Origin: Acidobacteriota bacterium
GTDB taxonomy: Bacteria; Acidobacteriota; Terriglobia; Acidiferrales; UBA7541
Direction of reading: 5' to 3'
NCBI GenBank assembly: GCA_003223215.1
Contig: QHYH01000147.1
Coordinates: 1-33,408 of the forward strand
Length of the DNA: 33,408 nt
Made by a program: the position numbers and the translations under genes. The number at the start of each line of letters is the position of its first letter. Positions within the stretch are counted from its first letter, which is position 1. The notes below the pieces were generated by a model. The model did not search any database and was not told where the DNA came from. It saw only the letters and a program-made list of their open reading frames with translations. Below are positions 6,724 to 32,902 of the stretch, one piece after another.

Positions 6724-6977
6724 ATGAGGGAACAAAAACCACAACCCGTGGCGGTGTGCACTCGCTGCGGAGCCGTTTCCTACTCCCCGGAGATGATGAA
6801 TGGCCAATGCTCTCAGGTGATTGTGGGCAAGCGCTGCCCGACGTGATTGGCAGCGCGGGAAACAAAGCCGAATGGGAGGCCTGCCCCGGCTGTCTGGCTA
6901 CCGGACCCGCAAATGAGAAACCGTGCGGGCAATGCTGCGGAGTCGGCTGGGTGTATGTCCGCAACCGCAAGCAATGA
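6724..6977 (+). pseudogene. Zinc-ribbon protein gene with a frameshift
   Basis: From the ATG at 6724, 40 codons read as a zinc-binding protein: V-C-T-R-C-G-A-V, then N-G-Q-C and K-R-C-P. They end at a TGA at 6844. The -1 frame continues with matching character to 6977: W-E-A-C-P-G-C-L, then P-C-G-Q-C-C-G-V-G-W-V and a basic end R-N-R-K-Q. Joined with a shift near 6840-6870, the two parts form an approximately 84-aa protein with two or more Cys pairs. The original frame after the TGA has no such Cys pattern. The simplest reading is a one-base deletion, in the genome or in the assembly. No strong slippery heptamer is visible. The function is unknown, probably a small regulatory or redox zinc ribbon. 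Confidence 0.5.
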
Positions 6978-7188: not shown

Positions 7189-8892
7189 TTAGCGACTCCC
7201 GAACCTGCGCGTGGCGGTGATGCCCTTGGCTTCGGTGATGGAGAGGGTGGCGCCGGCGGCTGCGCCGGGGAGGCGGTCGAGCTGGCCGCTCGGCCAGCGA
7301 ACTTCGATGGAGTCGGCTTTGTCGCGCTGGCCCAGGCCAAACGTGAGGACCAGTTCGCTCGCGGAAAGATAGCTCGAGCCGCTGTGCAGCGTCTTGGTTT
7401 GCGTGTCTCCGTCGGCGGTGAGCTTCACGACGGCGCCAATGCCGTCGCGGTTGGATTTCGTGCCGATAAGCTTGATGCGGAGACTGCGATTCGATGCTGC
7501 AGGGCCCTGCGCTTCGTTGCGGAACAAGTACACGGGGCCGCCGTTGGCCGAGAGCAGCAAATCCAGACGGCCGTCATTGTTAATATCCGCGTAGGCCGCG
7601 CCGCGACCGACGCGCGGAGAGGCGAACGCCGCGCCCATGGAGTTTGTCACTTCCACGAACTTTCCTTTGCCCACGTTGCGGAACAGGTGCGGCGCCATGG
7701 CGTAGGTGACGTTGGCCTGCACCTTCTGGATGTCGGCGTCAATGTGGCCGTTGGCGATGAAAACGTCCGGCCAACCGTCGAGGTCGTAGTCAAAAAAGAA
7801 GCATCCGAAGCCCAGGGTGAGCAGCGAGGCGCGGCCGATTTCCGAGCGCGGCGCTTCGTCGACAAAGAGCCCCTTGCCTTCGTTGTGGTAGAGCGAAACC
7901 ATCTGGTTCGAGAAATTGGTGATGAGCACGCTGGAGTAGCCGGAATGATCGTAGTCGGCGGAGTCCACGCCCATGCCCGCGCGCGCCACGCCGTCTTCGC
8001 TGAAGGCCACGCCGGCCACGACGGCTCTTTCGCTGAAGGTGCCGTTGCCGTTGTTGCGATAGAGCTTGTTGGGCTGTGTGTCGTTGGAGAACAGAAGGTC
8101 GGGCCAGCCGTCGTTGTCGTAATCGAGCACGGCCACACCGAGAGTCTTCGAAGTGGCGTCGCCGAGACCGGCTTTTTGCGTCACGTCTTCAAACGTGCCG
8201 TTGCCGCGGTTGTGCCAGAGCCGCACGGCCGTGCCTTTGTACGATTCCGGCGTGCAATACGATTTGCTCTTGCCGTCGAGCGTGCAATAGAGATCCGTCT
8301 CGGGCGTCCACTGGACGTAATTGCCAACCACGAGATCCAAGTGGCCGTCTTTGTCATAATCCACCCAGGCGGCGCTGGTGCTGAATCCTTTCGGGGCTTG
8401 CAATCCCGCTTTTTGCGTCACGTCGGCGAAGGTGCCGTTGCCATTGTTGTGAAACAGATGATTTTGCCCGTAGGCAGTGACGAACAGGTCGTCATTGCCG
8501 TCGTTATCGTAATCGCCGACGGCCACGCCCATGCCATAGAGCTCGATGTCCAAACCGGCTTTTCGCGTCGCGTCGGTGAACGTGCCGTCGTGATTGTTGT
8601 GATAGAGCTTAGGAGTTGAATGCTTGCGAAGGTGGCCGGGCCAGTCCATGCCGTTGACGAGAAAAATGTCCGGCCAGCCGTCGTCGTCGTAGTCGATGAA
8701 GGCCACGCCGGGGCCCATGGTTTCCGGGAGATATTTTGTGCCGAAGGCGCCGTTGTTGTGGAGGAAATGGATTCCGGCCTGTGGCGTGACGTCGCGGAAT
8801 TGAATAGCGGAGGTTTCGGGCGCAGCGCCAACACCGGTTTTCACAACCAAGGCAAGTCCAACCGCAAGTGCGGCGAACGGACGTTTCACCAT
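7189..8892 (-). CDS. CRTAC1-type FG-GAP/VCBS repeat protein with ASPIC/UnbV domain, Sec-exported
   Basis: This is a 567-aa exported protein. Residues 1-23 are a Sec signal peptide. The body is a seven-bladed beta-propeller of FG-GAP/VCBS repeats, each with a calcium-binding-like D-Y-D-x-D-G-x-x-D motif at about 67, 127, 178, 257, 313 (degenerate), 368 and 437. Residues about 478-550 are the C-terminal ASPIC/UnbV domain (N-R-D-G-I-G-A ... G-S-S-Y-L-S ... V-R-W-P-S-G). A cysteine pair at 203 and 213 lies in a loop between repeats (L-Y-C ... S-Y-C-T-P-E). It begins 9 bases after the stop of the AhpD-like selenoprotein candidate and is probably co-transcribed with it. A paralogue lies at 12849-14558. 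The family has no established bacterial function. Extracellular or periplasmic protein binding is the likely role. Confidence 0.9.
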   Translation of the reverse strand: MVKRPFAALAVGLALVVKTGVGAAPETSAIQFRDVTPQAGIHFLHNNGAFGTKYLPETMGPGVAFIDYDDDGWPDIFLVNGMDWPGHLRKHSTPKLYHNNHDGTFTDATRKAGLDIELYGMGVAVGDYDNDGNDDLFVTAYGQNHLFHNNGNGTFADVTQKAGLQAPKGFSTSAAWVDYDKDGHLDLVVGNYVQWTPETDLYCTLDGKSKSYCTPESYKGTAVRLWHNRGNGTFEDVTQKAGLGDATSKTLGVAVLDYDNDGWPDLLFSNDTQPNKLYRNNGNGTFSERAVVAGVAFSEDGVARAGMGVDSADYDHSGYSSVLITNFSNQMVSLYHNEGKGLFVDEAPRSEIGRASLLTLGFGCFFFDYDLDGWPDVFIANGHIDADIQKVQANVTYAMAPHLFRNVGKGKFVEVTNSMGAAFASPRVGRGAAYADINNDGRLDLLLSANGGPVYLFRNEAQGPAASNRSLRIKLIGTKSNRDGIGAVVKLTADGDTQTKTLHSGSSYLSASELVLTFGLGQRDKADSIEVRWPSGQLDRLPGAAAGATLSITEAKGITATRRFGSR

Positions 8893-8901
8893 GCCCCCGT
8901 T

Positions 8902-9468
8902 TCAGTCGCGGCCGACGCCGAGGGCGTCGGCGACGCGATTGATGTAGTTGAACCAGGACGCAATCAGGGTAATTTGCAGGATGCCACGGTCGTCAAAGCC
9001 TGCCGCGCGCAGCCGCGAGTGATCTTCCAGACTGCATTTTGTGGCGTCCTTGGTCAGTTTCACGACGTAATCGAGCATCGTGCGGTCCTGCTCGGTGATG
9101 GGCGCCGTGCGGTAATCCTTCTTCAGCGCTTCCACCATGTCCTCATTTAGAGTGACGCGACGCAGAAACTCTGCGTGGGAGACGATTCAATAGTGGCAAC
9201 GGTTCGTGACCGACACCATGGTCGCAATCATTTCGTGCTGATGCCGTCGGAGCGGCAAGTCCGGAGACATCAGAGCGCCAAACGTGCTGAAAGCGTGAAA
9301 GAGCGCTTCGGGAATCAGCGTGTGGCTCGCCACAATGCCCGCAGTCTCGCCGTTGTTCACGGGTTGGACCGGCGTGGCATACTCGGTGGGGTAGAGTTTT
9401 CGTTGGGACTCGATGGCGTTCTTAACGCATCCGTCATCTTCCATTCGCACAGTCTGAATCCAGGTCAT
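8902..9468 (-). CDS. AhpD/carboxymuconolactone-decarboxylase-family peroxidase-related protein, probable selenoprotein (in-frame TGA)
   Basis: This is one 188-codon frame. It starts at an ATG after TGAGGAAAA, is interrupted only by TGA at 9189-9187 and ends at 8902. Both sides of the TGA match the 'peroxidase-related enzyme' branch of the AhpD fold. Upstream are [13 protein letters not shown] and N-R-C-H-Y. Downstream are [24 protein letters not shown] and [12 protein letters not shown]. In the family the active site is C-x-x-C-x-x-x-H. Here it is C91-H-Y-[TGA]94-I-V-S-H98, so the TGA replaces exactly the second catalytic Cys. A SECIS-like hairpin follows. The protein probably reduces peroxides or acts as a thiol/selenol oxidoreductase. 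A plain nonsense mutation is the alternative. The 78-aa downstream piece alone would lack the active site. Confidence 0.8.
9160..9176 (-). promoter_or_regulatory. Candidate bacterial SECIS hairpin
   Basis: On the mRNA, ACGCAG-AGUUU-CUGCGU forms a perfect 6-bp stem (7 bp if the closing A-U is counted). It starts 10 nt after the UGA and lies within the coding sequence, as bacterial SECIS elements do. The apical loop has a G in its first two positions, and the 17-nt size and the distance resemble the E. coli fdhF minihelix. I could not run a SECIS search. Confidence 0.6.
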
Positions 9469-12848: not shown

Positions 12849-14558
12849 TTAGGCATGGTAAAGCGGCTCTATCCCCTTTCCTTCCAGACACTTGTAGGCC
12901 CTTTGCGCGCGAAGGTTTTTGTATTCTTCCGTGCGGCCGCTTGGCCAGTTGATGACCACGCGGTCGATTTTGTCGCGCTCGGCGAGGCCCGCGGTCACCG
13001 GGAGTTCGGATTGTGAAAGATAGCTCGAGCCGCCACGCACCATGCGCGACTGGTGAAGGTCTCCGGCGAAAATGTCTACGGTCGTGCCGATGGCATCGCG
13101 ATTGGACTGCGTGCCTTGCAATTCGAAGCGGATGCTGTGGTTGCCGGCCAACTGCTCGTTGCGAAACAGGACGGCAGGGCCGTTGTTGGTGGTCAGCAAA
13201 ATGTCCAAATCGCCGTCGCGATCGAGGTCGCCGTAAGCCAGCCCGCGGCCGACACGGGGCTGGTCGAAGCCTCCGCCCGCTTCGGCGGCCACGTCGCGGA
13301 ATTTTCCGTGCCCTTCGTTTAAAAAAAGCTGAGGCGGCTGAGCGTAGCCTACGTTTCCGCGAATGTTCCTGACGGTCTCATCGATGTGTCCGTTGGCCAC
13401 GGCTAAGTCAAGAGCACCGTCCAGGTCGACATCAAGGAACATGCACCCGAAGCCGAGAGTCGTTCGCGACGGCGCGCCGACTCCCGAAGCAATGGAAACG
13501 TCGTCGAAGACGCCCGGGGCGCCTGCGCGGTAGAGGCCGATCATTTCGTTGTCGAAATTGGTGATGGCGATTCCGGGCTTGCCGGAGTTGTCGAAGTCTC
13601 CCACGTCGATGCCCATGCCGGCGCGCGCTTTTCCTTCGGTGCTGAAGGCGAGCCCGGCCTCGATGGCGACGTCCTTGAATTTTCCGTTGCGGAGGTTGCG
13701 GTAGAGCTTGTTGGGCTGCGTGTCGTTTGCGACGAGGAGATCGGGCCAGCCGTCCCGGTCGTAATCCAGCATGGCCACGCCCAGGGACTTCGAACTGCTG
13801 TCGAACACGCCGCTGGTGGCGGTAACGTCCTCGAAGGTGCCGTTGCCGCGATTGTGAAACAACCAGCAGGTATCGCCGCGATAGGCTTCCGGCGTGCAAT
13901 ACGACTTGTGCGTGCCATCGAGACTGCAAAACACGTCGTTTTCCGGAGACCAGCGAACGTAATTGCAGACGAAGAGATCGAGGAACCCGTCGCGGTCGTA
14001 ATCAAACCACAACGCGGAGGTGCTGAGGCCCTGGCGACCAAACAGCCCGCTCGTGCGGGTGGCCTCGACGAAGGCTCCTTTGCCGGTGTTGCGAAAGAGG
14101 CGGCTTTGGCCGACGCAAGTGATGAAAATGTCGGGGAAGCCATCGTTGTTGTAATCGCCGACGGCCACGCCCATTCCGTACATCTCGACGTCAAGCCCCG
14201 CGCTTTTGGTGACATCGGTAAAAGTGCCGTTGCGATTGTTGCGGTAGAGACGCAGGGTCGCGCGCCGGCGCTTGTGGCCGGGCCAGTCCATGCCATTGAT
14301 GAGCAGAATGTCCTGCCAGCCGTCGGCGTCGTAATCCAGAAACGCGCAACCCGAGCCGAGCGTCTCCGGAAGCAGCTTGCCGCCGTAGGAGCCGGAGTTG
14401 TGCTGGAACCGGATTCCGGCCCGCGTCGTAACATCGGTGAAGCGAAATCCTGGGTTGGAAGACGAGCCAGCCCACGCCCAACGTGGAAAGCTTCTGGCAG
14501 CCAGGCCCGCGGTCAATGGCGAAAAAAGCGCGGAGAAAAGAAAATCCCTGCGGTTCAA
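12849..14558 (-). CDS. CRTAC1-type FG-GAP/VCBS repeat protein with ASPIC/UnbV domain, Tat-exported
   Basis: This is a 569-aa paralogue of the protein at 7189-8892. It starts at a TTG overlapping the response regulator stop by 4 bases (TTGA), so translation is probably coupled. The N-terminus M-N-R-R-D-F-L-F-S-A is a Tat signal, with a hydrophobic stretch and a cleavage region near residue 30. The propeller has repeats with D-Y-D-A-D-G-W-Q-D (about 75) and related motifs through the chain. The cysteine pair V-F-C-S-L-D-G ... S-Y-C-T-P-E is conserved between the paralogues. The C-terminal ASPIC/UnbV domain ends with V-I-N-W-P-S-G. Tat export implies folding, perhaps with a cofactor or metal, before translocation. 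The link to the two-component genes suggests it is either their target or a sensor accessory. Confidence 0.88.
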   Translation of the reverse strand: MNRRDFLFSALFSPLTAGLAARSFPRWAWAGSSSNPGFRFTDVTTRAGIRFQHNSGSYGGKLLPETLGSGCAFLDYDADGWQDILLINGMDWPGHKRRRATLRLYRNNRNGTFTDVTKSAGLDVEMYGMGVAVGDYNNDGFPDIFITCVGQSRLFRNTGKGAFVEATRTSGLFGRQGLSTSALWFDYDRDGFLDLFVCNYVRWSPENDVFCSLDGTHKSYCTPEAYRGDTCWLFHNRGNGTFEDVTATSGVFDSSSKSLGVAMLDYDRDGWPDLLVANDTQPNKLYRNLRNGKFKDVAIEAGLAFSTEGKARAGMGIDVGDFDNSGKPGIAITNFDNEMIGLYRAGAPGVFDDVSIASGVGAPSRTTLGFGCMFLDVDLDGALDLAVANGHIDETVRNIRGNVGYAQPPQLFLNEGHGKFRDVAAEAGGGFDQPRVGRGLAYGDLDRDGDLDILLTTNNGPAVLFRNEQLAGNHSIRFELQGTQSNRDAIGTTVDIFAGDLHQSRMVRGGSSYLSQSELPVTAGLAERDKIDRVVINWPSGRTEEYKNLRAQRAYKCLEGKGIEPLYHA

Positions 14559-15184
14559 GGAAGATTCACCAGACCATTACGAATCGCGTAAACGACCAGC
14601 TCCGCGGTTTTGTGAATGCCCAGCGTGTCCATGATGTTGGCGCGATGCACGGCGACGGTATTCACACTGAGATTTAAGTCCGACGCAATCTCTTTGTTGG
14701 ATTTTCCCGCGACGATGTGCTGGAGAATCTCCAGCTCGCGGGGCGTCAAACCGCCCCCGCGTTCGCCTTTGAGCGCGTCTTTGCGCGACACTTGCGGGTC
14801 GAGAACGGTCATCCCCGAGGCGATGCTCTTTACCGCGCTCACCAGGTCGAGATCCACGGCATTTTTCAACACGTAACCGCGCGCGCCGGCCTCGAGGGCC
14901 TGGCTGACCAGCGTTTCTTCGGAGTGCATACTGAGCATTAGAATTCCCGCTTCCGGATAGGCTTCCAGTATTTTGCGGGTGGCTTCGATGCCGCTCAATT
15001 CGGGCATGGCACAATCCATCACGATGACGCGTGGACGCAGGTCGGTGGCTATGCGCACCGCTTCTTCGCCGTCGCTCGCTTCCGCGACCACGGAGATTGC
15101 CGGGTCGTCTTCCAACATGCGACGGAACCCGCGTCGGACCAGCGCATGATCGTCGGCCAGCAAAACCGTTATCTTATGCGGCAT
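14555..15184 (-). CDS. NarL/FixJ-family response regulator
   Basis: The 209-aa protein has a receiver domain (residues 1-120) with the acidic pocket D11-D12, phospho-acceptor D57 in V-M-D-C-A-M-P, and the conserved Lys in G-Y-V-L-K-N. It has a C-terminal LuxR-type helix-turn-helix (about 140-205) with L-T-P-R-E-L-E-I-L, N-K-E-I-A and S-V-N-T-V-A-V-H-R. Its start overlaps the histidine kinase end by 11 bases and its stop overlaps the Tat-CRTAC1 start by 4 bases. It is almost certainly the kinase partner and probably controls this operon or the redox genes downstream. Its DNA target is not known. Confidence 0.95.
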   Translation of the reverse strand: MPHKITVLLADDHALVRRGFRRMLEDDPAISVVAEASDGEEAVRIATDLRPRVIVMDCAMPELSGIEATRKILEAYPEAGILMLSMHSEETLVSQALEAGARGYVLKNAVDLDLVSAVKSIASGMTVLDPQVSRKDALKGERGGGLTPRELEILQHIVAGKSNKEIASDLNLSVNTVAVHRANIMDTLGIHKTAELVVYAIRNGLVNLP

Positions 15185-16517
15185 GACTTTCCACTTTCTC
15201 GCGGGGAATCTCGAGACGCACTTGCGTGCCGCCTTGGGTTCGCGGAGTGATGGCCAGCTTTCCGCCGATCAGCTCGGCGCGTTCGCGCATGGCCACCAAT
15301 CCAATTCCCCGCTGCAGTTTCTCGGCAACAAATCCGGACCCGTGATCTTCAACTTCGAGTTCCAGGGAATTCGCCAAATATTTCAAGCGGACCCAGGCGT
15401 CGCGCGCGCCCGAGTGGCGGCTCACATTATTCAGCGCCTCCTGAAGCACGCGATAGATGTGCACGCCGGCGCGCGGCTCCACGGGAAACGGGTTGCCGCT
15501 CTTTTCGTAGTGCAACTCGATGCCCGCTTGCCTGCCCACCCTGGGAATATACCAGTCCAGCGTGCTTTCGAGACCGGCTTCCTCCAGCAAAACGGGGTGG
15601 AGCGCTTGCGAGAGCGTCCTGATGTTATTCAAGGTGGCTTGCGCGATTTCCTGCACCTCTTTCAGATCGCCGTGAAGAGGCGTTCCCTCCCCCACTTGCT
15701 TGCCCGCGCGGCGCAGCATCGATCCAACGGCGGTGAGCACCTGACCGAATTCATCGTGAAGCTCGCGGGAAATATGTCGCAAAGTGGATTCCTGTGCGGA
15801 AATAAGTTTTTGCGCCAGGTCGCTGCGCTGCTCGGAAAGATCCGCGAGGCGCGCAAAAAGCTGGCGATTGCTGCGAATGAGGTACAAGCTGGTCAACACG
15901 ATGGCAATGAGCGTGGCGGCGAGAAAGAGGTAAAGCTGGCGCTGTACCCCATCATAGATTTTCGCAATGCTGGCGGCAGCCTGCTCTTCGCCCTCGTTGT
16001 TTTCGACAAGCAGGCGAGAAACCGCGGTGCTGAGTGCTTGTTCACGCGCCTGGAGCGTCAAGCGAATCTGTTCGCGCGCCTGCGCTTCTTTGCCGCTCTC
16101 GGCAAGGGCGAACATGCGGTTGACGGCGTCCCAGAACTGCGCGACCGATTGCGTGAGATATTTCCTCTGGTCCGCCGTGCGGCTGGCGACGGCCAAGCCC
16201 TCTTCGATTTTGAGCGCGGTGTCCAAGTCCTGCCGGATGCGTTCGAATTGCGCGGTCCACGCCGTCAGGGGATAGCGCTCGGTGGTATCCAGCATGTCTC
16301 GCATGGCCAGCGCGACCGAATTGAGATCGTTCTGAATGCGCAGCAACTGCAGCGAATCCTTGCGGTTGCGATCCACCATCTCACTCTGAAGCTTGCGCAG
16401 ACCGGTGAGCTGCACACTGATGTAGGACGCGTAAGCCAACACGGCAGCCAGGGTAATGACCAGGCCGAAAAGAAGGCGATTTGTGGGTGAACGCTGCGAA
16501 AAGGCGGCCTTTTGCAC
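15174..16517 (-). CDS. Membrane sensor histidine kinase (HisKA_3 type)
   Basis: The 447-aa kinase starts at a GTG. Membrane segments at about 14-34 and 195-214 flank a periplasmic helical domain of about 160 residues, like a four-helix-bundle or CHASE3 sensor. A short coiled linker follows. The HisKA_3 dimerisation box has phospho-acceptor His254 in R-E-L-H-D-E-F-G-Q. The HATPase domain shows the N-box L-Q-E-A-L-N-N-V-S-R-H and the G-boxes D-H-G-S-G-F and G-I-G-L-V-A-M-R-E-R. This is the NarX/DegS-type kinase layout that pairs with NarL-type regulators. The gene is first in the minus-strand block with the regulator, CRTAC1 proteins, cytochrome and selenoprotein candidate. The helical sensor domain does not reveal its ligand. 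Confidence 0.94.
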   Translation of the reverse strand: MQKAAFSQRSPTNRLLFGLVITLAAVLAYASYISVQLTGLRKLQSEMVDRNRKDSLQLLRIQNDLNSVALAMRDMLDTTERYPLTAWTAQFERIRQDLDTALKIEEGLAVASRTADQRKYLTQSVAQFWDAVNRMFALAESGKEAQAREQIRLTLQAREQALSTAVSRLLVENNEGEEQAAASIAKIYDGVQRQLYLFLAATLIAIVLTSLYLIRSNRQLFARLADLSEQRSDLAQKLISAQESTLRHISRELHDEFGQVLTAVGSMLRRAGKQVGEGTPLHGDLKEVQEIAQATLNNIRTLSQALHPVLLEEAGLESTLDWYIPRVGRQAGIELHYEKSGNPFPVEPRAGVHIYRVLQEALNNVSRHSGARDAWVRLKYLANSLELEVEDHGSGFVAEKLQRGIGLVAMRERAELIGGKLAITPRTQGGTQVRLEIPREKVESHAA

Positions 16518-22831: not shown

Positions 22832-23911
22832 TTAAGCGACGGTAACTTCCGGACTTAGGTAAACGTCCTGGATGGCGTTCAGGAGCTGGATGCCTTCTTT
22901 CATGGGTCGCTGGAACGCCTTGCGGCCGGAGATGAGGCCGGTGCCGCCGGCGCGCTTATTGATGACCGCCGTGGCCACGGCTTCCTCGAAATCGCTCGCT
23001 CCGGAAGCGCCGCCGCTATTGATCAGACCCGCGCGGCCCATGTAGCAATTGGCGACCTGATAGCGGCAGAGATCGATAGGGTGATCGCTGGTCAGGTCGG
23101 AATACATGCGCTTGTCGAATTTGCCGTAGCTTGCGCCGTTGGAATTGAGCGCCAGGTACCCGCCGTTATTTTCTGGAAGTTTCTGCTTAATGATATCCGC
23201 CTCGATGGTGACGCCGAGATGGTTGGCCTGCCCCGTGAGATCGGCGGAAAGGTGATAGTCCTTATCCTTCTTGAAGGCGCTGTTGCGCAGATAGCACCAC
23301 AGGACGGTAGCCATGCCAAGTTCGTGGGCGTGCGCAAAAGCCTGAGAAATCTCCACAATTTGCCGCGTACTTTGCTCCGACCCGAAATAAATCGTCGCAC
23401 CGACAGCAGCGGCGCCCATGTCATAGGCTTGCTGCACGGTGCCGAACAGCACCTGGTCGAAGCGGTTCGGAAAAGTCAGCAGCTCGTTGTGATTGATCTT
23501 CACGATAAAAGGAATCTTGTGCGCATATTTGCGGGCCACCGAGCCAAGCACGCCGAAGGTTGAAGCAACGGCATTGCAACCGCCTTCCTTGGCCAGTTTG
23601 ACGATGTTCTCCCCGTCAAAGTAATCCGGATTCTTGGCGAAGCTGGCGCCTGCGGAATGCTCGATGCCCTGGTCCACGGGCAGGATGGAAAGATACCCGG
23701 TGCCGCTAAGGCGTCCGCCTCCGAACATTCGCTGAAGATTGCTAAGGACCCGAACATTGCGGTCGGAAGCCGCGTACACGCGATCGACAAAATCCGGGCC
23801 GGGAAGATTCAGCCGCTCTTTGGGGATTTTGGGCGATTTGAACCCCAGCAGCGAATCGGTCTTTGCCCCCAGATAGGTTTCAATTTTCCCGAGACTTACG
23901 GTGGTGGCCAT
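22832..23911 (-). CDS. fbaB: Class I fructose-bisphosphate aldolase (FbaB/DhnA type)
   Basis: The 359-aa enzyme reversibly splits fructose 1,6-bisphosphate to dihydroxyacetone phosphate and glyceraldehyde 3-phosphate. It follows E. coli FbaB closely through its length: [19 protein letters not shown], the [10 protein letters not shown] segment, [23 protein letters not shown] and the phosphate-binding [13 protein letters not shown]. The start has AAGGAGCACGTC upstream. It is last in the eight-gene sugar-phosphate run and 14 bases after pgl. It connects the pathway triose phosphates back to hexose phosphates, fitting a cyclic pentose-phosphate flux. Confidence 0.97.
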
Positions 23912-23925
23912 GACGTGCTCCTTCT

Positions 23926-24690
23926 CTACTCCCGAATTCCCTTTGATAGCATGCTTCCGGCGGCGGTGTCCACCAGCCAGACTAATTTCCCGTCCTTCGG
24001 CTGAAGCAATTGCGCCGGCAACTGCTCCGGTTCATACGGGCCTTCCAGAACACCCTTCAACGCCAGCGCCTTGTCCCCGCCAGTCACCATGAACAGGATC
24101 TCCGAGGCAGCGCATGCGGCCGGGGCGGTTAGCGTAATGCGCTCGGTGAATAATTTCCCGACCCAGTTGTGAACGGCGATACGTCCATCTGCGTGCAACG
24201 CTTTCGTTCCGGGAAAGAGAGAAAGGGTATGGCCTTCATTACCCATCCCCGCAAGCAGCAGGTCGAAGCGCGGAAGCTCGCCGGCCTTCAGCTTGAAATA
24301 CTTGACGAGCGCTTCTTCGTATTCGTGCGCCGCCCGCTCGGCATCCGGATATTCGCCCTTGATGCGCGTGACCTGGTTGGCATGGAGCGGAACTTTGGAG
24401 AGCATCATTTCGGAGGCCATACGGAAATTGCTGTCCGGATGGCTGGGACCGACGTGGCGTTCATCGCCGAAAAACACCTGCGTTTTACCCCAGGGCACTT
24501 GCTCGCGCAGCGCTGGATCGCTGGCTAGCAATTCGTAGAGCGCTTTTGGCGTCGAGCCGCCCGCGAGCACGACGCGAAAGGCGTTTCGCTGACGCACCGC
24601 TGCCGCAGCGGCTTCGACGAACTCTTCCGCGGCGCGTTTGGCGATGGACGCGGCATCCGCCAGGATTCGAATTTCTCGTTCCCGATGCAT
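23926..24690 (-). CDS. pgl: 6-phosphogluconolactonase
   Basis: The 254-aa DevB-type enzyme hydrolyses 6-phosphogluconolactone to 6-phosphogluconate, the second oxidative pentose-phosphate step. Landmarks are [27 protein letters not shown], and [17 protein letters not shown]. The usual G-M-G-x-D-G-H-T is varied to N-E-G-H-T. The C-terminal strand-helix part has M-V-T-G-G-D-K-A. It starts 5 bases after the zwf stop, with AAGGAA inside the junction, so it is co-translated with zwf. Confidence 0.95.
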
Positions 24691-24695
24691 TTCCT

Positions 24696-26282
24696 TCAGG
24701 TTACGATTCCGGTTTTTTCTGGAGTGGCCGGAGGGGCGATTCTCCCGCGTTTGTCGAGTTCTTCCTCACCAATGCGCCGCCAGGCGCGGCCGTCTTTTTG
24801 GAGCAGTTCATCCGCTTCGATGGGGCCCCAGGACCCCGCTGCGTAATTCGGAAACCCCCGCGCCGGCAGCGCGTGCCAGACGTCCAGGATAGGTTGGATC
24901 ACGCTCCAGCCCGCTTCGACCATGTCCGCGCGCTGAAACAGCGTGGCGTCGCCGGCCATGCAGTCGCGCAGCAGCCGCTCGTAGCCGGTACTGTGCTCCA
25001 TTCCAAAATAAGTGCTGTAGTCGAAATCCATGTTCACGAGCCCAAGTTTCATGATCGAGCCTGGAACTTTTGCGCCAAAGCCCAGCGAAATCCCTTCTTC
25101 CGGCTGAATGTGAATGACCAGGCGGTTGGTTTCGAGGTTGCGGACGCTGGTATTCCGAAAGAGCACGAAAGGCGTTCGGCGAAATTGAATTACGATTTCC
25201 GTTACGCGCCGCGCCAGACGCTTGCCGGTGCGCAGGTAGAAGGGCACGCCTGCCCACCGCCAGTTGTCGATGAGCAGTTTCAAGGCGACAAAGGTTTCGG
25301 TGTTGGAATCGAGGGCAACGGCGGGTTCGCTGCCGTAACCCGGAACACGCTGGCCCTCAACTATGCCGCTTCCATACTGCCCGCGCACCGTGTTGGTGAG
25401 CACTTCCTCGGGGGTCAACGGCTGAATGGCATGGAGTACTTCCGCTTGCTTGTTGCGAACTTCGTCGGCGTCGAAGGAAATGGGCGGCTCCATGGCGGTC
25501 ATCGTCAACAGTTGAAAGAGATGATTAGGCACCATGTCGCGGAGCGCGCCGGCGGTTTCGTAGAATCCGCCGCGATGCTCGACGCCGACCGTTTCCGCCG
25601 CGGTGATTTGCACGTGGTCCACGTAGTTGCGGTTCCAAAGCGGCTCGATGATGTTGTTGGAAAAGCGGAAAACCATGACGTTCTGCACGGTCTCTTTACC
25701 GAGATAGTGATCGATGCGATAAATCTGCTTTTCTGTCAGGACCTGCCTCAGATCCTGGTTGAGCTGCTTCGCGGAAGCCAAGTCGTGGCCAAAAGGCTTT
25801 TCGACGACGACGCGCGCCCAGTGGCCGTCTTCTTCCTTCGACAAACAACACAAAGCCAGCATCTTGGCGATCGTCGAGAAAAACCGCGGGGCCACGGCGA
25901 GATAAAAAAGGCGATTCCCTGCCGTGTGGTACTTCCGGTCGGCTTCGGCGATCTGCTGTTCGAGACGTTGGTAAGCGTCCGCGTCCTGAAAATCGCCTTT
26001 GACGTAGTAGGTGCGCTGACACATCCAATCCAGCAGCTGCGGGGCGATCGGCGAGACAGCAAACTTGGGAATCTCCTGCATGAGGTTTTTTCGAAAGCTT
26101 TCTGTGGTGAAATCGTCGGCGGAAAATCCGACGACCGCGAATTGCTCAGGAAGAAGTTTTTCCTCAGCAAGGTTGCACAGAGCGGGTATCAGTTTCCGCT
26201 TGGTGAGGTCACCGGCGGCGCCGCAAATGGTCATCACGCAAGGCGCGGCCGTTGAATTCGTCTCTGAATGATCGTAGTTCAT
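24696..26282 (-). CDS. zwf: Glucose-6-phosphate 1-dehydrogenase
   Basis: The 528-aa enzyme oxidises glucose 6-phosphate with NAD(P). The start at ATG 26282 (M-N-Y-D-H-S-E-T) is chosen because the longer frame upstream overlaps gnd and lacks the right character. Landmarks are the nucleotide fold [11 protein letters not shown] (where most homologues have G-A-S-G-D-L-T), [10 protein letters not shown], and the catalytic signature R-I-D-H-Y-L-G-K-E with the active-site His/Lys. R-T-G-K-R and the family's C-terminal [11 protein letters not shown] follow. It lies 49 bases after gnd and 5 bases before pgl, in the order gnd-zwf-pgl. Confidence 0.97.
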
Positions 26283-26331
26283 TGCTTTCGAATCCCTGTG
26301 CTCGGGCGACGAGTCGCGCTCACGGCTTCTG

Positions 26332-27348
26332 CTAGCCGGCTTTCTTTTCGATGTGCCCGCCAAATTGAAAGCGCATCGCGGACAGCACCTTGGCCGCAAA
26401 ATCATCTTCGCCGCGAGAGGTGAAGCGCTGGTACAACGAAGCACTAAGAACGGGAGCCGGCGCTGTCGACTCAATGGCCGCAAGAAGCGTCCAGCGTCCC
26501 TCGCCGGAATCCGAAACGCGGCCGGAAAAACGTTCGAGCGTGGGCTGCTCCAGCAAGGAAATCGCGGTGAGATCGAGCAGCCAGGAAGCAACCACGCTGC
26601 CGCGCCGCCAGACTTCCGCAATGTCCGCGAGATTGAAATCGTACTGGTAATGCTCCGGGTGCCGCAGCGGTGTGGTTTCCGCATCGGTTTCGCGATGGGA
26701 TTTGCCGGCGTTGGCGTGTTGCAAAATGTTCAGCCCCTCGGCGTAAGCGGCCATCAAGCCGTATTCGATGCCGTTGTGAACCATCTTCACAAAATGGCCG
26801 GCGCCCGAGGGACCGCAGTGCAAGTAGCCTTCTTCGGCTGTGCCGCCAATTTTCTCGCGGCCGGGAGTGCGCGGCACGTCGCCGCGGCCCGGTGCGAGTG
26901 TCTTGAAGATGGGATCGAGGCGTTTCACCACGGCCGTTTCTCCACCGATCATCTGGCAATATCCGCGCTCGAGTCCCCAGACGCCGCCGCTGGTGCCCAC
27001 GTCACAGTAATGAATGCCTTTTGCGGAGAGCTCTCGCGCGCGGCGAATATCGTCGATGTAATAGGAATTTCCGCCGTCAATCACGACATCGTCTTTATCG
27101 AGCTTGCCAACCAGGTCGTGCAGCGTGCCGTCAACTACGGCTGCCGGAACCATCAGCCATACCGCGCGCGGCTTTTGCAATTTGCTGACAAAATCATCGA
27201 CTGAGTTGGCGCCCGTTGCGCCTTCCGCAGAAAGCTGTTTCACCGAATCGGCGCTGCGGTCGTACACCACGCACTTGTGGCCGGCCTTCTCGAGGCGCCG
27301 GACCATGTTGGCGCCCATCCTGCCGAGCCCGATCATCCCCAGCTGCAT
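26332..27348 (-). CDS. gnd: 6-phosphogluconate dehydrogenase, short (decarboxylating) type
   Basis: The 338-aa enzyme converts 6-phosphogluconate to ribulose 5-phosphate and CO2. The start at ATG 27348 has GAGGAGCACAACG upstream. An ORF starting 9 codons earlier is less likely. Landmarks are [18 protein letters not shown], the [15 protein letters not shown] loop and the catalytic-Lys segment [16 protein letters not shown]. The protein is about 130 residues shorter than E. coli Gnd and matches the short GndA/YqeC-type class, which is often NAD-preferring. It sits 44 bases after pgi. Confidence 0.95.
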
Positions 27349-27392
27349 CGTTGTGCTCCTCGCCAATCGGCGCAAAAAATTCGTCCAGTGTG

Positions 27393-29108
27393 TCAGGCAA
27401 CCGCTTTTCGCGCGGCTTTGGATAGCGTGCCAAGCGCCGACTTCAAATTTCTCCTGAGATGGACACGCAACGCGCGACGGCCGCGTTCTGCGAGGACGGC
27501 AAAGTCGCCGCAGGCCTGGGCCGCCTTGACCACGCCAAAGGTGTACTTCTGCCCGGGAATCGGCAAGTCCTTGGCGTCGTCGCAGGTGATCTGCAGGAAC
27601 ACGCCGCTATTGGGTCCGCCTTTGTAGGCCTGTCCCGTCGAGTGAAGAAACCGCGGGCCAAAGCCGAGAACCGTGGCGACCTTTTTCCTGTCGCGCACGG
27701 CGTGCCGGATGGTCTGTAGCGCCCGCTCATTCTCCGCATTCATCGGGATATAGCCAAGCAGGGCAAAGTAATCGCCGGCGCTGAGACGGCAAAGATGCCT
27801 CTTCAAGACGGCAGCGACATTCAAGCCGCCGTGAATGGCTGCCACGTTTTTCTCGTCGGCAAAAAACTGAATACCGCTGGCCTCAAAGAAAGGCACTTCG
27901 AAAGGCAGCTTGCCCTTACCCTCGTATTCGGTGGTGAGCTTGCGCGTTTCCACCTTGCTGGCTTCGACGTCCGGCTGATTGAAAGGGTTGATTCCGATGA
28001 TGGAGCCGGCGACGGCCGTGGCGATCTCCCAGCGGAAAAATTCCTGCGCGAGGCTGTAGACCTCTTCGACGCTGATGCTCACGACGGGGTGCCCCGCTTT
28101 TTCAAGGGTCAGCACCGCCGTGTCCTGGGCCCTGCTGGGTTTCGTGGCCAGGCGCAGATAGACAAACACGCGGTCGCCGCCATAAACGGAAGGTCTTGCG
28201 ACGCGCTCGCGATCCACGGGGATGATGCCCTTGCCCGCTTTTCCTGTGGATTCAGCGATGAGTTGTTCGAGCCATGCGCCCAGATCGTAGATTCCCGGCG
28301 AAGCGATGATGGTGAGTTTGTCGCGTCCGTGGATCGCGGCCACGCCAAGAATCGTTCCCAAGATCACGCCGGGATTGTCGCGCACCGCGGAAGTTGGGCC
28401 GCAGGCGGAAACCATTTCCTTCGCAGTGAGCAGAAACCTTTCCACGTCCAGGCCCATGATCGCCGCGGGCACCATGCCGAAATTCGAGAGCGCCGAATAG
28501 CGCCCCGCGATGCTTGGCACTCCGAAGAAAATCTCGCGGAACTTGTCGGCTATGGCGACTTCCTGCAGGTGCGAGCCGGGATCGGTGATCGCCACGAAGC
28601 GATTCCCCGCCTCTTTCTCCCCGACTTTTGCTTTCACGCGCTCGAAGAAGTATTGTTTGTAAATGTTGGGTTCAAGCGTGCTGCCCGATTTGCTCGAGAC
28701 GATGCAAAGCGTGCTTTTCAGATCCAATTTGCGTTCCATCGCTCTGATTTGGACCGGATCGGTGGAATCAAGCACATGAAGTTCGGGAAAACCCTTGATC
28801 TTGTCGAAGGTCATACGAAGAACCTCCGGGCAAAGGCTGGACCCGCCCATCCCAAGCAGCAAAGCATTCTTAAAACGCGCCGCTTTCACGTCTTCGGCAA
28901 TGCGCTTGAACGCGGCCACGTGCGAAAGCTGCTGTTCCACGATGTGCAACCACCCCAGCCAACGACTTTCGTCGCTTCGCGTCCAAAGGGACGCGTCTTT
29001 CTTCCAAAGGCGTGCGACTTTATGGTTTTTCCGCCAATCCTCCAGCGATACGGCCACTGCATTTGCGAGATCTTCCGGTAGTGTGCAGGTCTGTTTGTTC
29101 ACGCTCAC
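27393..29108 (-). CDS. pgi: Glucose-6-phosphate isomerase, Tal-Pgi fusion-type isomerase half
   Basis: The 571-aa protein starts at a GTG whose bases overlap the transaldolase stop (GTGA). SIS-domain phosphate-binding motifs are seen at G-M-G-G-S-S (86-91) and [10 protein letters not shown] (138-147). The later N-P-F-N-Q-P-D-V-E segment is typical of PGI. It resembles the isomerase half of bifunctional transaldolase/PGI proteins rather than a classic stand-alone Pgi, with an added N-terminal helical part. It interconverts glucose 6-phosphate and fructose 6-phosphate. Placement directly after tal with a 4-base overlap suggests coupled translation and possibly a physical complex. The C-terminal third (about 400-560) carries [12 protein letters not shown]. 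Confidence 0.93.
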
Positions 29109-30274
29109 GCGCGGGCTCCCGCGGTTTTCCCCACGGCGTCCAGCAGCGTTTTAAAAGCGTCGGAAAAGAGCTTTACGCCGTCCGCAAGCAGTTTGTCGGT
29201 CACCTCTTTCATCGAGATTCCCGCCTTGGCGAGATCGGCCATGGTTTTCGCCGCGCCCTCGACATTCTCGGTAAGGCTGGGACGCAACCGGCCATGGTCG
29301 CGGAAAGCATCGAGAGTTGCCGGCGGGATGGTGTCCACGGTGTCTGCGCCAATCAGCTCTTCGACGTAGAGCACGTCGCGGAACTTGGGATTCTTCGTGC
29401 TCGTGCTGGCCCACAGCAGCCGCTGCGTTTGCGCACCCTTCGATGCCAGAGCTTGCCAGCGTGCTCCGCCAAAAAGCTCCTGGTATTTCTTGTACGTGTG
29501 CCGGGCGTTGGCGATCGCCACTTTGCCTCGCAAGCTTTCCAGCAAAGCCTTTTGTCCGGCGTCGACACCGGCCTTTAGCTTTTCATCAATGATGCTGTCA
29601 ACAAGCGTGTCAATGCGGCTCACAAAGAAGCTCGCCACGCTGGCAATGTGGCTGACGTCCTGGCCCTTCTTGACCCGCGCTTCGAGCGCGGAAAGAAAAG
29701 CTTCCGCCACTTGTTCGTACGCGGACTGAGCAAAGAGCAGTGTGATGTTGATATTAAGACCATCTTCCAAGCATTGCCGGATCGCGGGAAGGCCTTCCGG
29801 CGTGCCGGGAATCTTGATCATTACGTTCGGGCGGTTCACGCCCTTCCACAGGCGGTGCGCTTCCGCGATGGTCGCTTTGGTGTCGTACCCTAGAAAAGGC
29901 GAAACCTCAAGGCTGACGTAACCGTCGCGTCGGTTGGTTTCCGTATACACCGGCTTGAAGATGTCGCACGCATCTTGAATGTCACGGAAGGCAATCTTCT
30001 CGAACAAACCATTGGCATCGAGTTTCTTTGCCTCGGGCGAGTTCAAAATGTCGGCGTAAAGATTGCTACCCGTGATGGCCTTTTCGAAAATGGTGGGGTT
30101 CGAAGTCATTCCGCGCAAGCCGTCGTTATCGATATATTTCTTTAATTGCCCGCTGGTGAGCAGGTCTCGACGGACGTAGTCCATCCAAGGAGACTGGCGA
30201 TAGGCCAGCAAGCCCTTGAGCGGATTTGTGCCTTCTCCCTTGGCGATGTTTGGCAGAGTGGTCGTTGTCGTCAT
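29105..30274 (-). CDS. tal: Transaldolase
   Basis: The 389-aa protein starts at ATG 30274 after GAAGGAGAACGATT. It transfers a dihydroxyacetone unit between sugar phosphates in the non-oxidative branch. Signature segments are G-M-T-S-N-P-T-I-F-E-K-A-I (55-67) and V-M-I-K-I-P-G-T-P-E-G with Schiff-base Lys154, followed by N-I-N-I-T-L-L-F-A. The length and layout match the long (type 2) transaldolases and the transaldolase half of Tal-Pgi fusions. The N-terminus has a run of Thr. Its stop overlaps the pgi start. Confidence 0.95.
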   Translation of the reverse strand: MTTTTTLPNIAKGEGTNPLKGLLAYRQSPWMDYVRRDLLTSGQLKKYIDNDGLRGMTSNPTIFEKAITGSNLYADILNSPEAKKLDANGLFEKIAFRDIQDACDIFKPVYTETNRRDGYVSLEVSPFLGYDTKATIAEAHRLWKGVNRPNVMIKIPGTPEGLPAIRQCLEDGLNINITLLFAQSAYEQVAEAFLSALEARVKKGQDVSHIASVASFFVSRIDTLVDSIIDEKLKAGVDAGQKALLESLRGKVAIANARHTYKKYQELFGGARWQALASKGAQTQRLLWASTSTKNPKFRDVLYVEELIGADTVDTIPPATLDAFRDHGRLRPSLTENVEGAAKTMADLAKAGISMKEVTDKLLADGVKLFSDAFKTLLDAVGKTAGARA

Positions 30275-30357
30275 AATCGTTCTCCTTCGCCTTGAAAAAC
30301 ACCTCAAACTTCATTTTACGCCTTGGCAGGCGGGCGTGTTCCACGCTTCTAGTATCC

Positions 30358-30828
30358 CTATACTTTCATCTTTGCGCTCGCCCCAAATTTGTCCTCGAGC
30401 GCCTTGATTTTTCCAAGGCGCCGCACATGCCTTTCTTCTTGGCTGAATTTCGCTCCCAGGAACGCCTTCACCAAATCCTCGGCAAGCTTCACGCCAACGA
30501 CGCGAGACCCCAGCACCAGCACGTTGATGTTGTCGTGCTCCACGCCCTGATGCGCCGAATAGGTGTCGTGACACATGCCGGCGCGAATACCCATGACTTT
30601 ATTCGCCGCAACGCTCGCTCCCACGCCGCTTCCGCAAATCAACACGCCGCGCTCGGCTTTGCCGTCGAGTATGGCCCGGCCCACGGCTTCTGCAAAATCC
30701 GGATAGTCGGAGGGATTCTCGTTGAACGCCCCCACGTCCAGCACTTCGTGGCCGAGAGAGCGCAGGAGATCGCCCATCGCGACCTTGAGAGCAAAGCCTG
30801 CGTGATCCGACCCAATCACGAGCTTCAT
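30358..30828 (-). CDS. rpiB: Ribose 5-phosphate isomerase B
   Basis: The 156-aa enzyme interconverts ribose 5-phosphate and ribulose 5-phosphate. The start at ATG 30828 gives [16 protein letters not shown] 15-residue extension overlaps tkt. Other landmarks are [20 protein letters not shown] with the catalytic Cys, [11 protein letters not shown] and N-V-L-V-L-G-S-R. It lies 7 bases after the tkt stop and 83 bases before tal. Its ribosome site is weak (GTGAGCCCCCG), so it may rely on coupling with tkt. Confidence 0.96.
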
Positions 30829-30835
30829 CGGGGGC

Positions 30836-32902
30836 TCACTTCCCCAAGACTTCCCGGGCAGCGGCAACCACATGGTCCGCGGCGAAACCGAATTTCTTCA
30901 ACACATCCTTTAACGGAGCCGAGGCACCGAAACTGTGCATACCGACCATTTTTCCTTTCGCGCCGACGTACCGCTCCCAGCCAAATGTCGACCCCATCTC
31001 AACCGAAACCCGCGCCGTTACATTTTGCGGGAGCACGTTCGCCTTGTAAGCCGCATCTTGCTGTTCGAAAAGCTCCCAGCAAGGCATGCTCACAACCCTG
31101 GCCTTGAGGCCTTCGGCTTTGAGCTTTTCGTAAGCATCTACGCAAAGTGACAGCTCGCTCCCGCTGGCCATCAAAATCACGTCGGGTTTCCCGCCCGCGG
31201 CGTCCGCCAGAACATAAGCTCCTCTCCCAACGCCGGAAGCCGGCGCATATTTGGTGCGATCGAGCGTGGGCACCGCCTGCCGCGTCAGCACCAGACTCGA
31301 CGGTCCGTGCTTGTGCTTGAGGATCAGTTTGTACGCTTCCACGACTTCATTGGCGTCGCCCGGACGCAGAGTCATCATGTTCGGCACCGCACGCAAAGAC
31401 GCCAGTTGCTCGACGGGCTGATGCGTGGGCCCGTCCTCACCGAGCCCAATCGAGTCGTGCGTGAAAATGTAGATCGCGGGAATTTCCATCAGTGCGCCCA
31501 GGCGCATGCTCGGGCGCATGTAATCGCTGAAATTGAAAAACGTCGCGCTGAAGCTGCGCAGCTTAGACAACGTCATCCCGTTGACGATCGCGCCCATGGC
31601 GTGCTCGCGCACGCCAAAGTGAATGTTGCGCCCGCGATATTCGTTGGGATAGAACTCTCCCGCGCCGTCAAACGTCAGATTGGTTTTGTTCGATTTCGCC
31701 AGGTCCGCGGAACCGCCGATAAGCCACGGAATGTTTTTTGCCAGTACGTTCAGCGTCTTCCCCGAGGACTCCCGCGTCGCGATGCCTTTCGGATCCGCGG
31801 CAAAACTCGGCAGGTCCCTGTCCCAGCCATCGGGCAATTCCCCACTGAGCATGCGCTCGATTTGATCTGCCGCGTGCGGAAACTGCTTCTTGTACTCTGC
31901 AAACCTCGTTCGCCACGCCGCATGCCCCTGCGCGCCGCGCTTGCCCACGCCGTTTCTGAACTGATCGTAGACGCCGTCCGGAACCAGAAACTTCGCGTCT
32001 TCCGGCCAGCCGTAATTTCTCTTCACCAGTTTGACTTCCGCTTCGCCCAACGGCTCACCATGCGCTTCGTAAGAGTCTTGCTTGTGCGGCGAGCCGTAGC
32101 CGATGTGGCTGTTGACAATGATGAGCGTTGGCCGATCGTTGGTTTGGAGGAAGTTTTCATACGCGCGCCCGAGCATCTCGAGATCGTTCGCATCGGTGAC
32201 GTGCGCGACGTTCCATCCGTAGCCCGCAAAGCGCGTTGCTACGTCTTCGCTGAACGACCACTCGGCAGGCCCGTCCAGCGTCACGCGGTTGTTGTCGTAA
32301 ACCCAGCAAAGATTCGAAAGCTTCAGATGGCCCGCCAGTGAAGCCGCTTCGCATGACACGCCTTCCATCAAATCGCCGTCTCCGCAGACCGCGTACACCT
32401 TGAAATCGAAAATGGCAAAGCCTGGCTTGTTGTAATTCTCTCCCAGCCACTTGCTGGCGATGGCCATGCCCACGCTGTTTCCTGCGCCTTGACCCAACGG
32501 CCCAGTCGTGGTTTCCACGCCGGTCGTAAGATGCGATTCCGGATGCCCCGGCGTTCTGCTGTCGATTTGCCGGAACCGCTTGATCTCTTCCATGGGAACG
32601 GAGAGATCATTGGTCACTTCGCCCTTTGCATTCACCTGCCGCACGCCGGCCAAATGCAATGTCGCGTATAAAAGCATGGATGCATGTCCCGCCGAAAGCA
32701 CAAAGCGGTCGCGGTTTGGCCACGTGGGATCCGCAGGGTCATAACGCAGGTAGTGCTGCCATAGGGAATAAACTACCGGCGCAAGCCCCATTGGCGCGCC
32801 GGGATGCCCCGAGTTTGCCTGCTGGACCGCGTCGATCGCCAGAGTGCGAATGGTATTGATGCTCAGCAGATCGACGTCCACTTGACTCTTCGCCTGACTC
32901 AC
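30836..32902 (-). CDS. tkt: Transketolase
   Basis: The 688-aa thiamine diphosphate enzyme moves two-carbon units between sugar phosphates. It starts at a GTG with AGGAGCGAAA upstream. Landmarks are the substrate His in S-G-H-P-G-A-P-M-G (about 31-39), the ThDP motif G-D-G-D-L-M-E-G-V with the closing V-Y-D-N-N, then the pyrimidine-domain segments [10 protein letters not shown] and [16 protein letters not shown]. The length is normal for bacterial Tkt (about 660-690). It is the first gene of the eight-gene run, so the promoter should lie in the 500 bases upstream. Confidence 0.97.

Follow-up and report, generated by a model that had tools for sequence, protein, structure and literature searches.

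An AhpD-like gene of an acidobacterial genome with an in-frame UGA predicted to encode selenocysteine in a CxxU active site

AhpD-like selenoproteins (TIGR01926/COG2128) have been described from marine DNA and from some genomes. According to the parts of the published reports cited here, 27 AhpD-like CXXU selenoproteins (COG2128) were found in Sargasso Sea DNA (PMC1088965, 2005), and 299 'AhpD-like 1' proteins (COG2128) were found in ocean samples (PMC2398784, 2008). A 2006 report lists two AhpD-like (COG2128) selenoproteins, and for the Acidobacteria it gives four selenoproteins of three families (PMC1794560, in part). In the excerpted sections of a 2026 review, the 'AhpD-like protein, TIGR01926, CxxU' is tabulated as a known selenoprotein family, with MCB9421940.1 as the listed example, and AhpD-like genes are said to adjoin Prx-like ones (PMC13188914). 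The active site of AhpD comprises a five-residue relay, which in PA0269 of P. aeruginosa consists of Glu36, Cys48, Tyr50, Cys51, and His55 (PMC3141380, in part).

The gene studied here lies in a window of 33,408 nucleotides, the whole stretch of DNA that was analysed, from an Acidobacteriota bacterium (contig QHYH01000147.1). It resembles the described proteins in its HMM family, in the CxxU motif with selenocysteine (Sec) predicted at the second position, in a SECIS element downstream, and in the existence of cysteine homologues. Because the product passes the TIGR01926 model, listed as CxxU in the excerpted review (PMC13188914), the gene belongs to a described selenoprotein family. The initial annotation had hinted that a peroxidase-related selenoprotein between a pentaheme cytochrome and a CRTAC1 gene was not known to be described. 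The family turned out to be known from that review. The flanks are as the annotation said, with five CxxCH motifs counted by eye in the cytochrome and FG-GAP and UnbV_ASPIC domains in the CRTAC1-like proteins. For the acidobacterial clade, its frozen SECIS and its neighbours, no description was found in the open-licence literature, a body that leaves most subscription journals outside. The lineage, the frozen SECIS, the cysteine copy, and two recurrent neighbourhoods are apparently new. Taken as a whole, the locus is very likely to encode a TIGR01926 selenoenzyme, with reduction of a peroxide or a disulfide by Sec94 and Cys91 as its probable chemistry.

Reading frame, family and active site

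The frame starts with an ATG at 9468 and contains one internal TGA, at codon 94 (Table 1). Under genetic code table 11 it yields only a 93-residue open reading frame, 9468-9187. The Pfam CMD match covers residues 57-114, and the match to TIGR01926 ('peroxidase-related enzyme') covers residues 52-185 with 108.8 bits against a cut-off of 81.8. Both span the TGA, so the two halves form one protein. Mean identity to the window protein is 0.705 before the TGA (residues 1-93) and 0.796 after it (residues 95-188). Thus the frame itself and its relatives bear out what had been claimed of an otherwise complete 188-codon frame with family similarity on both sides of the TGA. An in-frame stop could by itself point to a sequencing error or a decaying pseudogene, but the identical TGA recurs in many separate assemblies, which disfavours a base error, and the protein is conserved on either side of it. 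Both explanations were rejected on these grounds, and their probability is negligible. With the TGA recurring in relatives, the frame is more than chance.

Table 1. Features of the predicted selenoprotein gene and its cluster in the window
Feature	Position	Strand	Basis
Gene of the predicted selenoprotein, AhpD-like peroxidase-related enzyme	8902..9468	-	188 codons plus stop TGA (8904-8902)
In-frame TGA, codon 94, predicted to be read as selenocysteine	9187..9189	-	TGA in 87/87 distinct orthologs
Codon of Cys91, first CxxU residue, probable resolving cysteine	9196..9198	-	Invariant in 30 sequences
Codon of Glu79, putative proton-relay glutamate	9232..9234	-	Invariant; spacing as in PMC3141380 (in part)
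Codon of Tyr93, relay position (His132 in M. tuberculosis AhpD, Tyr50 in PA0269)	9190..9192	-	At least 90% conserved; relay literature in part
Codon of His98, putative proton-relay histidine	9175..9177	-	Invariant; PMC3141380 (in part)
Predicted SECIS hairpin with a GUU apical loop (9169-9167) on a 7-bp stem	9160..9176	-	17 nt past UGA; synonymous freezing, pairing, fold
Upstream pentaheme cytochrome with TPR, 974 aa	9686..12610	-	Cytochrome_C554, TPR; five CxxCH by eye
Downstream CRTAC1-like protein (FG-GAP, UnbV_ASPIC), 9 nt past the stop	7189..8892	-	Pfam domains
Second CRTAC1-like protein of the cluster	12849..14558	-	Pfam; relatives' clusters
LuxR-type response regulator of the cluster	14555..15184	-	Pfam; relatives' clusters
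Histidine kinase of the cluster	15174..16517	-	Pfam; relatives' clusters

The AhpD core domain model TIGR00778 is also passed, with 36.7 bits against a cut-off of 27.8. The scores stay under the cut-offs of AhpD proper (TIGR00777, 19.6 bits against 191.95), of AhpD_rel_CFYUT (NF041238, 55.4 against 175), and of the GroundWater_YciW (seleno)protein (NF053654, 31.9 against 310). NF041238, a model 357 positions long, describes a related AhpD-type domain with CFYUT in place of the CHYUI of the window protein. The sequence traits that mark the CxxU form of TIGR01926 were found, namely a conserved TGA in place of the second CxxC cysteine, the Sec machinery, cysteine homologues, and a predicted SECIS.

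The predicted structure has a mean pLDDT of 94.0. Its best solved match is 2prr (Z 22.4, rmsd 2.4, 175 aligned), followed by 2oyo (Z 21.9), 6k40 (21.8), 2pfx (21.3), and 3c1l (21.2). These five share the fold over 170-175 residues. The solved peroxidase-related AhpD proteins match the window protein by sequence profile at 2.1e-21 or better, whereas identity to them is only 25-28%. In the alignments, 2pfx, 3c1l, and 6k40 have a cysteine at the Sec position. M. tuberculosis AhpD (1gu9) is less similar, with a Z of 12.2 and 10% identity.

The proposed alignment of C91-H-Y-U94-I-V-S-H98 with the AhpD CxxC site placed C91, U94, and H98 correctly. The relay of PA0269 has the same spacing as E79, C91, Y93, U94, and H98 of the window protein (PMC3141380, in part), and all of 30 diverse sequences with the TGA share E79, C91, U94, and H98.

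Decoding of the in-frame UGA

Some match to the window protein (E up to 0.001) occurs in 75 of the 95 genomes of its order. Among the 36 order matches that have at least 66% identity and cover codon 94, 35 contain exactly one TGA, and that of G079 contains a TGA and a TAA. Codon 94 is TGA in all 30 loci fetched from the order, and likewise in 80/80 named public loci, which are the best 80 of 307 relatives, overlap with the order genomes, and were found with patterns that sat away from codon 94. The titles of these best 80 name Acidobacteriota, Planctomycetota, Gemmatimonadota, KSB1, and Latescibacterota, and in one record Betaproteobacteria; the nearest are MAGs titled Acidobacteria gp2, with Candidatus Acidiferrum MAGs among the next. 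After duplicates were removed from 113 genes, the alignment held 87 distinct orthologs, whose record titles name several phyla, and every one has TGA at codon 94. Two TGA-bearing loci had been left out beforehand, one with its frame lost after codon 146 (L049) and one with a gap of N (L050). Across the phylum, matches at 1e-20 or better were found in 88 of 396 genomes drawn, and the majority are thus without a close copy. Of the 30 phylum matches with at least 275 bits, 29 have one TGA (at codon 94 in all 13 that were checked), and the remaining one, in G108, has none. The site is retained in distant TGA-bearing homologues with 27-45% identity to the window protein. As had been expected of a Sec position, residue 94 is not random in homologues: it is TGA in the orthologs and Cys in the lone close TGA-free relative.

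The codons of the predicted hairpin are nearly frozen. In the 87 distinct genes, codon 98 is CAC (87), codon 99 GCA (84) or GCG (3), codon 100 GAG (87), codon 101 TTT (87), and codon 102 CTG (86) or TTG (1). The synonymous entropy of codons 98-102 averages 0.06 bits, compared with 1.38 across 85 conserved degenerate positions elsewhere and with 0.71 in the lowest five-position window outside this stretch. The flanking codons are free to vary (Ser97 1.98 bits, Arg104 2.29 bits). Thirteen further loci repeat codons 98-102, with TTC at codon 101 of L176 as the single exception. Six of the seven hairpin pairs are present in every one of 83 distinct ortholog segments, and the outermost pair is present in 77 of them. 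Among 16 divergent segments that bear the TGA, each pair is present in 11 to 15. The fraction of paired cells is 0.85 in register and still reaches 0.72, its highest value off register, when the partners are shifted by -2. The GUU loop lies 17 nt past the UGA, and the folding energy of the 39-nt stretch is -9.5 kcal/mol. Limits given for bacterial SECIS elements are a loop of 3-9 nt with G in the first two positions, a stem of 4-16 bp, a distance of 16-37 nt from the UGA, and an energy of -7.5 kcal/mol or lower (PMC13188914, in part), and the window hairpin falls within all of those quoted. By itself this energy does not stand out (z -1.26; 26 of 200 shuffles do as well), nor is the covariation among 10 divergent sequences significant (74 of 500 shuffles reach it). 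Because these two are each weak alone, the SECIS assignment rests on the synonymous freezing. A pattern of TGA, nine nucleotides, and the hairpin occurs 41 times in 40 of the 95 order genomes, every time inside a family match. The reversed control gave no occurrence in the 95 genomes, and a narrow pattern that required a Cys codon ahead of the same peptide also matched in none of them.

The window genome (8.80 Mb, 279 contigs, 97.65% complete) was searched for selA, selB, selD, and tRNA-Sec, on whose presence the selenoprotein claim hung, and all four were found: SelA with 567.9 bits, SelB with 354.1, SelD with 351.4, and a tRNA-Sec with 65.4 bits and, by ARAGORN, the anticodon TCA. The SelD gene (L146, G000:C89:13265-14227, minus strand) has one in-frame TGA as well and is probably a selenoprotein gene too. 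The presence of tRNA-Sec was judged by matches below 1e-10. By this measure it is found in 31 of the 35 order genomes whose match has one TGA and 66% identity or more. The other four (G009, G019, G022, and G028, 63-86% complete) gave no match below 1e-10, probably because of gaps. G056, which is 97% complete and has a distant TGA-bearing homologue, also gave no tRNA-Sec match below 1e-10. The 79 of 95 genomes above the RF01852 cut-off of 47 bits overstate the occurrence of tRNA-Sec, because weak matches are not tRNA-Sec and were rejected; ARAGORN identifies the two top matches in G108, at 47.1 bits (just above the cut-off) and 45.8 bits, as tRNA-Ser and tRNA-Cys. Two strong tRNA-Sec matches occur in some relatives (G014:C465:6472-6566 and 6731-6825; G033:C2:1115713 and 1112064; G291:C10 and C4), and these genomes may carry more than a single selC copy each.

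The frame alone is silent on which residue is inserted, and a normal or suppressor tRNA might read through UGA94, inserting for instance Trp. This is very improbable. General reassignment of UGA was rejected because the gene's own stop codon is TGA. The frozen hairpin and the complete Sec machinery also speak against readthrough, as does the presence of Cys, not Trp, in the close TGA-free relative and in 17 more distant TGA-free homologues. On the comparative record, TGA94 almost certainly encodes selenocysteine. UGA94 would be decoded by tRNA-Sec and SelB, directed by the hairpin just downstream, and the second UGA, at the gene end, would terminate translation. The initial reading of a selenoprotein with a CxxU active site is thus supported, at the level of sequence, by the machinery, the conserved TGA, the frozen hairpin, and the cysteine relative.

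Cysteine forms and predicted chemistry

The close TGA-free relative is the full-length locus L160 of G108, a genome that is 99% complete. It has TGC (Cys) at codon 94 and Thr in place of Cys91, and its hairpin stretch is altered. No SelA match was found in G108, and the other three genomes in the same search each have one. G403, of the same family as G108, has a tRNA-Sec. The tree, which was used only to place the cysteine copy and contains very long outgroup branches and possibly some false joins, puts it in a group of 97 with support 99/100, the remaining 96 rows being Sec forms, on a long branch beside L166 (92/95). Most likely Sec gave way to Cys in a lineage from which the Sec machinery disappeared; this is one case, on a long branch.

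Position 94 is Cys in every one of the 18 TGA-free homologues that were examined, and 13 of them are without Cys91. In comparison, Cys91 is present in 87/87 Sec forms. Position 94 therefore carries the core residue, and Cys91 goes with selenium. Among the 13 are two distant paralogues in the window genome itself (L064 and L065, in C173 and C66), Cys-94 forms with NSYC and SNYC, L064 being described from the one of its two AhpD domains that was inspected.

In the proposed mechanism, Sec94 would replace the second cysteine of the AhpD CxxC motif, with Cys91 as its resolving partner and with Glu79, Tyr93, and His98 as a proton relay. We infer Sec94 to be the reactive residue: its selenol would be oxidised, form a selenenylsulfide with Cys91, and be reset by a cellular thiol reductant. 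Reduction of a peroxide or a disulfide is the chemistry assigned with moderate confidence, and chemistry, substrate, and reductant are all what we infer. The substrates of AhpD-type enzymes vary, which counts against the assignment.

The product, though a true selenoprotein, could instead be an adaptor that passes electrons, serving a partner peroxidase as its disulfide reductase in the way that AhpD serves AhpC, and not be a peroxidase itself. The CxxU pair would fit disulfide exchange, AhpD completes the AhpC/AhpD system, and the related PA0269 is described as only a weak peroxidase (PMC3141380, in part), but no peroxiredoxin was found by Pfam among the eight window proteins and four neighbour-family proteins scanned. 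The adaptor role is tentatively plausible. The selenol might also serve another reaction of the fold, such as reductive dehalogenation as in the debrominase Bmp8 (6ohi, 6ohj). Bmp8 comes next among the fold matches (Z 19.1), but identity to it is only 14% across 172 aligned residues and it scores below the peroxidase-related entries; this role is improbable. Direct reduction of a peroxide or disulfide by Sec94 and Cys91 remains the preferred reading.

Gene neighbourhood and lineage

In the window an MFS transporter, the histidine kinase, the response regulator, a CRTAC1-like gene, the cytochrome, the predicted selenoprotein gene, and another CRTAC1-like gene follow each other on one strand. 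The region 22832-32902 holds what we take, from translations read by eye, to be a pentose-phosphate/sugar-phosphate cluster. Among the named loci, which are the best 80 of 307, a same-strand cytochrome upstream together with CRTAC1 downstream occurs in 21, and the entire window cluster is retained in L066, L067, and L068. Another 24 of these best 80 have an amino-acid permease directly upstream on the same strand, with titles from Acidobacteriota, Gemmatimonadota, Planctomycetota, and Latescibacterota. All three permeases scanned with Pfam are AA_permease_2, and the nearest solved chains include the consensus-mutated light chain of the Xc- system, LAT1/2, and the bacterial 6f2g. In 35 of the same 80 neither arrangement is found within 1 kb, and three of these have a CRTAC1-like gene upstream. 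Thirteen of these best 80 have a related gene within five genes, mostly just downstream; the lone scanned example of that neighbour, in L121 (10675-13191), has AMP-binding, PP-binding, and acyltransferase domains. Genomes G005, G003, and G002 belong to a different family within the order; in them a pair of AhpD-type genes, both with a TGA, adjoin on opposite strands (L053, L055, and L057), with two hairpin types.

A speculative and rather unlikely extension is that the clade is dedicated to selenium, has moved between phyla with its SECIS intact, and forms with a LAT/SLC7-type permease a module that would import and reduce an amino-acid-like disulfide or another thiol compound, and that in the lineage of the window it joined the pentaheme-cytochrome/CRTAC1 cluster. 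The recurrent permease and cytochrome neighbours offer two routes toward the substrate. The near-identical 17 nt of the SECIS in loci titled from several phyla make it a good natural substrate for the study of SelB recognition. The cysteine copy of G108 shows what changed once selenium was, most likely, abandoned: Cys91 is gone as well. The locus and its relatives, mostly soil acidobacterial MAGs, add a large Sec-retaining branch to a family that ordinary gene calling would truncate.
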